The translations under genes were made by a program, and so were the position numbers. Below the pieces are notes generated by a model. It did no database searches. It was not told the origin of the DNA and worked only from the letters and a program-made list of their open reading frames with translations. A DNA stretch of 64,000 bases, taken from Desulfonatronospira thiodismutans ASO3-1. GTDB lineage: Bacteria; Desulfobacterota; Desulfovibrionia; Desulfovibrionales; Desulfonatronovibrionaceae. How positions within the stretch are numbered: the stretch's first letter is position 1; every line of letters begins with the position of its first letter. The stretch lies in NCBI RefSeq assembly GCF_000174435.1, contig NZ_ACJN02000001.1, positions 124,001 to 188,000 of the forward strand, read 5' to 3'. Positions 6,607 to 61,490 of the stretch are shown here, one piece after another.

Positions 6607-7132
6607 GCATTAAATATAATAAAAAATGGTGAATATTGATATCACAGGCATAAGTACTGATGTGATGAATTGAATTGATATATTTATTTAATCTTTCACT
6701 ACATATGGAAAAATAGAAATGAATACCTTTAATCACAGTGTTTGATGGTATGCGAAAAATCATAACTTGTTCAAAATAATTCATGTTTTTGATCAAAAAA
6801 AGCAAGATAATATTTTGAGTCAAATTTTTTTATGGCATTTTAATGGTATGTCGCAAGAAGCATCCTCTGCGCCTTCTCTGAGCTCATCCAAAAATACTAC
6901 TATCTTCGGACATGGAGGATTATTGGAAGGGGGTTATTTGGAAGCAGCTGCAGGGAATTATAATTGTCATCAACCGGGAGGAATAGTTGTCGTTGATCAG
7001 ACTGATAAAGACATTAAAAAATCAGATCATAACCTTCAATCCTGATTCCGTGAACTTGTTGCATAAACATTGCAATAACAATGCATTTTTTTTATTTACT
7101 TTATCCATAAAATTCAGTAGCTTCCATCACTA
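6607..7132. other. AT-rich gap with a doubtful 92-codon frame
   Basis: This stretch separates the acyltransferase gene from the transposase remnant. A plus-strand frame at 6767-7045 encodes 92 residues with a Ser/Gly-rich middle (SSAPSLSSSKNTTIFGHGG) and no family I recognise. It has no good ribosome-binding site and could be a fragment of a lost gene. Nothing else is supported here. Confidence 0.5.
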
Positions 7133-8490
7133 ATGCAACTTTTTTGTAACTGCACTCAACAGGTGAAGGAGGCTATAATATTAAAAATATCTAAAGTGGT
7201 TAATAAGGATGACCTGCAGACAGGCCCGGCCGGACTGATTTTGCTGGGCGAAATGGTCAGGGCCGTAGAGCTGGACAAAATAGCTAAAGCCATTACTTCC
7301 GGTAATCCTCAGATAACCGCGGCAGATATCTTGAAAACCATGATCGGTCTTTTGAGCCAGGGCAAATCCGACTTTGATCACGCCAAAGCTATTATTGGTG
7401 ACGAGTTCTTTATGAACTCCATGGGTATTGATCGTGTGCCTTCTGCTGAAACCTACAGGCAGAAGTTTCAGGAGCTGGCTTTGAACAATGATCTGGAGAC
7501 TATTCTGCCCGAGCTTTCCATCAAGCTCTGGAAAAAGTCCGGGGTTGAAAATGAGTACATCGAGAAGGACCAAAAGAAGTGGGTGCGTGTGGATATTGAC
7601 CCGGTCATATACGACAATGCCGACACCAAGAAAGAAGGTGCTGCCTATACCTACAACAACCAGTTCGGGTTTTCTCCAGTTTTTGCTCATTTTGCCGGGG
7701 GCTGGATGATCAATGCCAAGCTCTATCCCGGCAACTTCTCTACTCATAGCCCGGAAGCTATGGACTTTGTCCTGCAGAGCCTTGGTTTTAAAGACAGGAT
7801 GGTCGAGGAGACCAAGCTCCTGGTGATGGATTGTGGCTTTGACAATCAGCAGATGCTTCAAAACCTTTGGAATCGCACGAATACCGACTTCCTGGTCAAG
7901 CACAACATAAGACGTGAGAGCCCTGAAAGCTGGCTTGAGGTAGCCAAGGAGAAGGGAGAACTGGTATTTTCGGACGAGAAGAAAGGGTATGACCTGTATC
8001 GAGGCAGCACCTATCGCCACATTGACGGCTGCGATGAGCCTGTGCGCCTTGTTTTCGAGGTCCGGGAAATCTTCAAGAAGAAAGGGCAGCTTTTGCTCAT
8101 GCCCCAGGCCAAGGTGTTCAGTGTCTGGACCTCTCTTGACCAGGCCTTTTCTGACAAGGAAGTGCTCAAGCTCTACCGGATGCGGGGAATCACGCCGCAT
8201 GGCGTGATGAACACTGCCTTTTTGCTTATGGGTATGCTGACCTGTCACGCCAAGGCGTGATTCAAAGTTATTGCACTGGATATGATCAGAAGGTCCTGGG
8301 ACTTAAGAAAGCCATCACGCCTGTGGCGTGACTTAGAATCAAGACCGTGATGAGTCACGCCAGCGGCGTGATTGTCTTCATGTCCTGCCGCCTGGTGAAA
8401 CATGCCCGGCAGCTGATCCTGCAGCTGGGATGTTCCAGGCCGTGGTTTGACTGGTTCGCCTCGCTGTTCACACGTCTCAAGCAGGCGTAA
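7133..8490 (+). pseudogene. IS1380-family transposase, inactivated by deletions and palindrome insertions
   Basis: The first 350 residues are a clear IS1380-type DDE transposase (NKDDLQTGPAGLILLGEMV, VDIDPVIYDN with the first Asp, LVMDCGFDN with the second Asp). After LYRMRG the segment that should carry the catalytic Glu (about 20 residues in relatives such as ISEcp1) is missing. It is replaced by a TCACGCC...GGCGTGA palindrome, and the sequence resumes at NTAFLLMGML. Three more such palindromes and a frame change follow. The true C terminus (RLVKHARQLILQLG ... LKQA, stop at 8488-8490) can still be read in another frame. No good start codon follows the AAGGAGG at 7165-7171. Terminal repeats were not identified. 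Confidence 0.88.
8190..8371. repeat. Cluster of four TCACGCC-N2-4-GGCGTGA palindromes
   Basis: Four copies lie at 8190-8207, 8245-8260, 8315-8331 and 8355-8371. All have identical 7-base arms (TCACGCC / GGCGTGA) and different loops of 4, 2, 3 and 3 bases. They lie within the 3' part of the broken transposase. The first replaces the catalytic-Glu segment and the third introduces a stop codon. A fifth copy with the same arms is at 61325-61341. Confidence 0.9.
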
Positions 8491-8799
8491 GGCCAGGAGG
8501 AGGCGCATGGATAAAACACCCAGGGAGTAGTGGGTCCAAAATCTGGAAAAATATGAATATTTGAGGCTTATCATGCTTATTTATCGCTAAGTGCCCTGTT
8601 TTTGCCCATGCCGGAAAGCTCGGATGGACCGTAAACACCATCCGGGGGGGGGGGGCTTCGCAGGGGTCTATGTATATAACGTCTCGGATTCAGGTAACTA
8701 ATATTAATAAATTAAATTAATCAATCAACTTACCTTCATTACTATAATCACTATATAAATAGCATATTATCATGAAATCAATTATAAAGTAATTATTGA
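8491..8799. other. Gene-free AT-rich DNA with a 12-base G run
   Basis: No gene is visible. The stretch holds AGTAGTGGGTCCA at 8525-8537, which recurs exactly at 18396-18408 near the end of the other transposase remnant, and an uninterrupted run of twelve G at 8644-8655. Confidence 0.6.
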
Positions 8800-9355
8800 T
8801 ATTTCTTGGCGCAAAAATTGCTTAAAGTAAAAAAAGATATTGAGATTAAAACACTGCCGAGATTTGCTAACGGTCAAAGTAATTTGGTCATCAATTTTCC
8901 AAGAAACATATTAAATCCTGAATATATATTTAGGCAATAATACAGATTATCAATACTTTGAACCTTTAATCAAAATTGGTAATAATGTTAATGCTACATC
9001 GAATGTCATAATATCAGCGGTTAAGAAAATAAATATTGAAGATGATGTAATGTTTTCATCGAATATTTTTATAGGCGATCACATGCATGGCATAGATCAA
9101 AAAGGTATCGCATATAAATATCAAAAACTGACTAACATTCAAGAAATACATATCAAGAGAGGAAGCTGGATCGGGCACGGAAAAATAATAATGCCCGGGG
9201 TAACAATAGGAAAATATTCAATTAGTGGTGCAAATTGCGTTATAAACCGAGATATACCAGAATATAGTGTAGCAGTCGGTGCTCCAGCGAAAGTTATAAA
9301 ACAATGGAATAGCAAACTTAATAAATGGACAAATTACGGAAAAAATTATGAATAA
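8800..9355 (+). pseudogene. Decayed hexapeptide acyltransferase, paralogue of the gene at 5959-6606
   Basis: Residues read from 8809 (KVKKDIEIKTLPRFANG, then NLVINFPRNILNPEYI) align with the N-terminal part of the intact acyltransferase at 5959-6606. One base is then gained near 8930, shifting the frame. About 30 residues corresponding to the middle of the intact protein are missing, and the rest continues in another frame as LIKIGNNVNATSNV...SIMPGVTIGKYS-type repeats to AVGAPAKVIKQW. The last 101 codons (from ATG 9050) are intact and could in theory be translated, but lack the N-terminal half. The region is much more AT-rich than the 5959 copy, so the two copies probably have different origins. 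Confidence 0.75.
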
Positions 9356-61299: not shown

Positions 61300-61490
61300 G
61301 TTAACCATTCAGGGGATGCCGGAATCACGCCTCTGGCGTGACCGGGGAACAGTCCCCGCGACACCTTTTACGCACAATTACAAAAATTACAGACGCGAAG
61401 TTTTGTGTACCAGCACAGCCGGTACTTAGCGAGGGACAGTCCCCAGGCCTTGTGCCAGTAATCACCACCGAGGACCCCCTGAATGGTTAC
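61300..61490. mobile_element. MITE-like element, copy C, with 8-9 bp target duplication and nested palindrome
   Basis: About 190 bp with ends G(T)TAACCATTCAGGGG...ACCCCCTGAATGGTTAC, flanked by the direct repeat TCCCGGAAG (61292-61300 and 61491-61499; eight or nine bases depending on where the element starts). It shares ATCACCACCGAGGACCCC with copy B. It contains ACAGTCCCC twice and the TCACGCC-TCT-GGCGTGA palindrome at 61325-61341, which copies A and B lack. It is longer than the other copies. Confidence 0.88.
61325..61341. repeat. TCACGCC-TCT-GGCGTGA palindrome inside MITE-like copy C
   Basis: The same 7-base arms as the four palindromes in the broken transposase at 8190-8371, with a three-base TCT loop. 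Confidence 0.8.

Follow-up and report, generated by a model that had tools for sequence, protein, structure and literature searches.

A 16–18-bp palindrome stands in place of target bases in a dead IS1380 element and in other repeats of Desulfonatronospira

We find that a perfect palindrome of 16–18 bp, TCACGCC-N(2–4)-GGCGTGA, with constant arms and a free loop, stands in place of target DNA at many unrelated sites in the genome of Desulfonatronospira thiodismutans ASO3-1. Alignments to homologous sites show a recurrent footprint: ~5–9 bp of target (once 72 bp) are gone, and a block of ~18–20 bp, made of the palindrome and at most three flanking bases, is there instead. The palindrome is best read as a very small palindromic repeat that is specific to the genus and not special to the IS1380-family transposase gene described below. 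We tentatively favor the view that its spread does not depend on the surroundings and that it enters by substitution at DNA breaks or forks, a mechanism that we infer.

The window, a stretch of 64,000 nucleotides (contig NZ_ACJN02000001.1, G000:C1:124001-188000), contains five copies, which start at positions 8190, 8245, 8315, 8355, and 61325. The original prediction was that four palindromes with identical 7-base arms and differing loops lie within 182 bp, and its coordinates are verified. The features are as follows.

7041–8695, plus strand: IS1380-family element, copy A, dead (blastn against L021; NCBIfam IS1380)
7133–8260, plus strand: transposase ORF, truncated, ending at the TGA within P2
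8190–8207, no strand: palindrome P1, loop GCAT; 18 bp replace 72 bp (24 codons) of the sister copy, CCAGTGAG...TTCCAGG, and the catalytic Glu codon is lost
8245–8260, no strand: palindrome P2, loop AA
8244–8261: P2 block, G-TCACGCC-AA-GGCGTGA-T; 18 bp replace 9 bp, ATAATATGC
8286–8287, plus strand: 4-bp deletion without palindrome, relative to sister and outgroup
8315–8331, no strand: palindrome P3, loop TGT
8315–8334: P3 block, TCACGCC-TGT-GGCGTGA-CTT; 20 bp replace 8 bp, CCAGGCGC
8355–8371, no strand: palindrome P4, loop AGC
8354–8373: P4 block, G-TCACGCC-AGC-GGCGTGA-TT; 20 bp replace 8 bp, CCAGTGTG
61301–61490, no strand: MITE with ends GTTAACCATTCAGGGG and CCCCTGAATGGTTAC; left part with the palindrome, right part palindrome-free (AGGCCTT)
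61325–61341, no strand: fifth palindrome, TCACGCC-TCT-GGCGTGA, loop TCT, within the MITE

The 4.1-Mb genome holds 64 perfect copies against 0 for a reversed-pattern control, a count far over chance that leaves the original prediction standing. Dinucleotide shuffles of the window contain no palindrome, and a scan of 364 kb for copies with 3-nt loops returned 10, 3, and 0 with zero, one, and two mismatches, respectively; on these three results we reject a chance origin. Decay in the 364-kb scan is low, so the copies are young or constrained. Genome-wide, one arm mismatch is found in 21 further copies (141 strand matches minus 2 × 60), compared with 60 perfect ones. The loops differ while the arms stay constant, as measured by searches that demanded perfect or near-perfect arms. 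The loop is 3 nt long in 60 of the 64 perfect copies, comes in nine kinds after normalization of orientation, and is mostly common to the members of one repeat family, as expected when the host repeat does the copying. The IS1380 loops GCAT, AA, and AGC occur in no other perfect-arm copy in the genome. Most copies are intergenic and lie in many unrelated contexts, and folding of single strands yields −5.7 to −9.4 kcal/mol.

The element in the window belongs to the IS1380 family (NCBIfam NF033539; a sister copy scores 312 bits and the truncated ORF of the window 198 bits). The sister (L021, on G000:C2) is homologous to copy A over the whole element, and its protein is 95% identical to the window transposase across residues 1–352. 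As an outgroup we used an intact homologue from another genus (G013, 71% protein identity). Neither the sister nor the outgroup contains the palindrome, and the two agree with each other at each of the four sites; the window copy is therefore the derived one. The original prediction thus survives the comparison with IS1380 relatives, and sequence is indeed lost at each of the four palindromes relative to the sister (net length changes are −54 bp for P1, +9 bp for P2, and +12 bp each for P3 and P4; the 4-bp deletion at 8286/8287 is separate). P1 had been thought to displace ∼20 residues including the catalytic Glu, nearly the 24 codons found here. The lost 72 bp code for most of TSEQFHSEFKSEMDMERLPSGKFQV and include the Glu of the motif Y-x2-R-x3-E-x6-K, a known signature of IS4-like transposases; the sister reads YRMRGTSEQFHSEFK. 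The in-frame stop that had been ascribed to another palindrome is the TGA of P2, which closes the ORF at 8260. The palindromes helped kill the transposon gene, with P1 by itself removing the catalytic Glu. We rejected selection for in-frame events: P2 makes a stop and P1 deletes the active site, and frame keeping is therefore taken as incidental. The earlier picture of a tiny palindrome inserted at, or healing, deletions is partly supported: it fits P1, whereas the other three sites mostly show a small substitution, with ∼8 bp out and ∼20 bp in, and no sizeable deletion that was healed. An Rfam search of positions 7000–8800 gave zero matches. Near the right end of the element, positions 8643–8653 form a long G-run where the sister has TCTCGGAGGG.

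At three of the four IS sites, the first four bases lost are CCAG (permutation p = 2.5e-5, or 4e-4 with one base of slack); this motif was picked post hoc and is only suggestive after a 256-fold correction. The four events within 182 bp are more tightly spaced than expected from random placement in the element (p about 0.01).

Every site in the genome was run with its flanks through BLAST, and homologues were then aligned pairwise. Where a context has a homologue without the palindrome, 5–8 nt take the palindrome's place there in nearly every case. Palindrome-free members of such pairs, with the replaced bases in brackets, read GCCTG[CCCCG]TTGAATAG, AATTAAA[CGGGA]CAGGCGG, TTTCA[CGGGG]CAAGCAG, GGGACAA[GTGGGTCC]CGGAAGAG, GGTTTTGATTAA[CTCTTC]CTACG, GTGTTTA[ACGGTT]TTGATTAA, and GGCAC[CAGGC]CTGGGG. 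The replaced segment goes by family: hairpin modules have CCCCG or CGGGG, other families have GTGGGTCC, CTCTTC or CGCTTC, or ACGGTT, and the GTAACCATTCAGGGG MITE has CAGGC or CCGGC. Filled and empty homologous sites, which speak for recent movement, are found for the IS1380 element (sister and outgroup), the tRNA-Asn duplicates, and the repeat families, the direction of change being shown solely for the IS1380 copy and for the tRNA-Asn duplicates (by reference to the intact gene); for the MITE families, it is conceivable in principle that the copies without the palindrome are the derived ones. The palindrome itself is not flanked by a target duplication; target bases are lost instead.

In duplicated pieces of tRNA-Asn, the intact sequence GTTAA[CCACTAGG]TTGGCGG has become GTTAA[P]TTGGCGG, where P is the palindrome. 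At a second tRNA-Asn site, CCTG and a palindrome have simply been added between GGCGG and TTCAAG, with zero bases lost. The tRNA-Asn/palindrome pattern is common to another genus, with different loops, and at the first position a genome from a different family has TCACGCT-GGA-AGCGTGA, a paired arm change. Compensatory changes also define sister forms with the arms CCACGCG/CGCGTGG, TCACGCG/CGCGTGA, and TCACGCT/AGCGTGA, and a census of perfect short hairpins located CCACGCG-NNN-CGCGTGG and TCACGCG-NNNN-CGCGTGA in similar flanks.

The loci L102:16217, L113:4001, L118:19582, L072:2571, and L022:2593 carry sister hairpins whose arms are CCACGCG, CCACGCC, or CCACGCT, some of these hairpins being followed by tandem half-sites in which CAGGACGCGTGG or TTCGCGTGG is repeated. 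At L042:1356-1970 (G000:C2:517855-518469), and likewise in L145, L197, and L199, an intact tRNA-Asn precedes duplicated tRNA 3' parts around a 92-amino acid GIY-YIG gene, an arrangement conserved in another genus and partly in another family. The locus has the appearance of a small mobile gene that targets tRNA. Near a contig start in G013 (L146:1-60), a tRNA-Asn 5' half joins a palindrome with the loop TTG just upstream of an intact tRNA-Asn.

The palindrome is housed in repeats that are unrelated to one another, namely a 75-bp MITE, hairpin modules, and the duplicated tRNA-Asn pieces. The fifth copy of the window had been placed within a MITE, and 61325–61341 does lie in one with GTAACCATTCAGGGG-type ends. 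In G000, a ∼75-bp MITE that has GTAAGCATTCAGGG-type ends and contains a palindrome with one mismatch occupies a site whose orthologue is empty in G006, another Desulfonatronospira genome (L113:6507-6585 versus L179:1395); the insertion is accompanied by an 8-bp target duplication, TGCCACCT. Some of the copy number is thus due to passive carriage in mobile MITEs. The separate contexts, four in IS1380 plus tRNA-Asn and several repeat families, argue for movement of the palindrome itself.

Five of six other Desulfonatronospira genomes carry 67, 17, 6, 6, and 3 copies; the 67 belong to the closest relative checked, and the genomes with 67 and 17 copies represent two other species of the genus. We count 4–5 copies in each of three genomes of a neighboring genus, mostly 0–3 elsewhere in the order, and 0–3 in distant genera. 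The 64 copies in D. thiodismutans are thus those of a dispersed ∼20-nt repeat in many unrelated contexts, with abundance restricted to one genus.

Substitution at breaks or forks, the reading we favor, would be a DNA-level event tied to fork stalling or to a break. A few bases would be shed from the target end, and a strand that can form the 7-bp hairpin would be captured, or would serve as template, during gap closure; microhomology, for example A-CC-A, may assist placement. The source would dictate the arms but not the loop, which we propose lies at the tip of the hairpin, a place of imprecise copying or opening. Since the IS loops GCAT, AA, and AGC have no perfect-arm counterpart elsewhere in the genome, copying from another site would require the loop to be altered upon or following entry, or to be created as the palindrome enters. 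Palindromes found with other loops at the same position in homologous repeats of different species could reflect inheritance and rapid change of the loop instead of fresh events. Random breaks do not by themselves explain the clustering of four events in 182 bp. In a variant that we consider very improbable, the palindrome would not enter as a single unit: TCACGCC would be appended to each of the two 3' ends at a break after base loss, and the tailed ends would be joined via 2–4 junction bases. If true, one bacterial end-healing activity would explain the constant arms, the random loops, the missing target bases, the clustering at spots that break repeatedly, and the donorless loops.

It is rather unlikely, in our estimate, that the palindrome has no mobility of its own and is a module of BIME-like mosaics, exchanged with copies already present, through gene conversion or illegitimate recombination over a few flanking bases (AA..., CAGG, TTSAA). 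P2 reads CCTG-P-TTCAA and nearly matches the hairpin-module flanks GCCTG-P-TTGAA, the right-hand TCAA being native to the IS. Conversion does seem to act on the IS1380 element, as copies A and B are 0% diverged just upstream of the island (0 differences in 127 positions before P1), compared with 10 in 97 between the palindromes, 4 in 230 downstream, and 58 in 1018 further upstream (7041–8059). A-specific and B-specific changes are intermixed, and this divergence pattern fits gene conversion between copies that halted at the palindrome island; a hypermutated island was rejected, as conversion of the flanks fits better than a mutation burst. Against a swap, three of the four IS loops lack a donor with perfect arms anywhere in the genome, and the common flank amounts to just 3–4 bp per side, and to still less at P1, P3, and P4.

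Movement of a REP-like hairpin on single-stranded DNA by a Y1 (RAYT/TnpA) transposase is improbable. The genome has 31 PF01797 matches, the hairpins are stable, and GTAG precedes the hairpin in one repeat family. Yet the first 20 Y1 loci, examined over 250 bp to each side, contain no such palindrome, and the GTAG/CGTC tag is missing from most copies. To our knowledge, Y1 insertion by HUH enzymes removes no target bases, unlike the palindrome.

Slightly more slender is the chance that the palindrome is a selected protein-binding or RNA site, such as an operator or terminator, rather than a mobile repeat. The arms vary less than the loops, there are sister forms with paired arm changes, and a phage contig repeats the same palindrome as an intergenic element; a host function is, however, unlikely for copies in a dead transposase gene, in MITEs, and in tRNA fragments. 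On that 63-kb viral contig (IMGVR_UViG_3300036846_000316; L230 and L231), a 17-bp palindrome with loop CCG or CGG occurs seven times in two stretches, several copies lying just ahead of gene starts, and is probably an unrelated regulatory signal. None of six IMG/VR stretches scanned for a viral donor resembles the source.

We regard an excision scar as slightly less credible still: the arms would be the leftover ends of a larger element that took out a few target bases on insertion and then departed, and the loop would be the junction, in keeping with constant arms and a variable 2–4-nt center that resembles a coupling sequence, but the 32 single arms in 364 kb include no recurrent pair around a larger element. 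The GIY-YIG nuclease encoded between the palindrome-bearing tRNA-Asn duplicates is a highly improbable mover: the genome's only stand-alone GIY-YIG gene has palindrome doublets on both flanks, in a layout that recurs in another genus, but no close orthologue exists in the species with 67 palindromes, and none exists in two other carriers, and we rejected it as a general driver, since gene presence does not follow copy number. A genome-wide search for PF00078 (RVT_1) gave zero matches, and therefore neither a group II intron nor a retron reverse transcriptase was detected, though a reverse transcriptase from outside the genome is possible. The searches made returned no donor, intermediate, or enzyme for the palindrome.

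The SDRs (small dispersed repeats) of Nostoc and its relatives, reportedly described by Elhai et al. in 2008 (Genome Res 18:1484), a study that PMC3116915 and PMC2884548 cite, are said to be ∼20-nt dispersed hairpin repeats with compensatory changes that lodge within minitransposons and next to short repeats in tandem, are confined to one clade, and are mobile without a known enzyme; RNA intermediates have reportedly been proposed for them. Our palindrome is likewise a small dispersed hairpin repeat with compensatory changes, confined to a clade and found inside mini-elements and near short tandem repeats. It differs in being a perfect palindrome of 16–18 bp with a free loop, in removing target bases on entry, and in residing in a genome with no detected reverse transcriptase, in contrast to the RNA proposal for SDRs. 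It also resembles the GC clusters of yeast mitochondria and the double-hairpin elements of Allomyces, which are tiny hairpins optional between relatives. GC clusters have putative target duplications, AG or ACT, at their flanks, and the stems of GC42 are slow to evolve (PMC4478555), whereas our palindrome lies in a bacterial chromosome and shows loss of target bases and no short duplication. Palindromes in Fusarium mitochondria accompany nearby deletions and sequence variation and are the nearest parallel to the substitution footprint (PMC7218506).

REPs and the REPIN-RAYT system share with our palindrome short, mostly extragenic palindromes and mosaics, in a genome with Y1 genes (PMC3116915, PMC3733652). 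REPs are marked by a GTAG/CGTC tag (PMC3733652), whereas our copies are shorter, mostly untagged (GTAG is found in one repeat family only), and absent beside the Y1 genes examined. In the microdiversity of bacterial genomes, small segments are replaced rather than inserted or deleted, and homology-assisted illegitimate recombination has been proposed (PMC2884548), but the incoming segments there are not one recurrent palindrome.

Taken together, the palindrome is best read as working most like the cyanobacterial SDRs and the mitochondrial GC clusters and double-hairpin elements, and it does not behave as REP/RAYT or IS/MITE elements do. Its footprint, replacement rather than duplication of target bases, is unlike that of every transposon class tested here. 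If mobile, it would rank with the smallest bacterial mobile DNAs described so far. It links the very small repeats of bacteria to an old puzzle, that of the GC clusters and double-hairpin elements of mitochondria, and the before-and-after pairs within one genome make hairpin movement testable.
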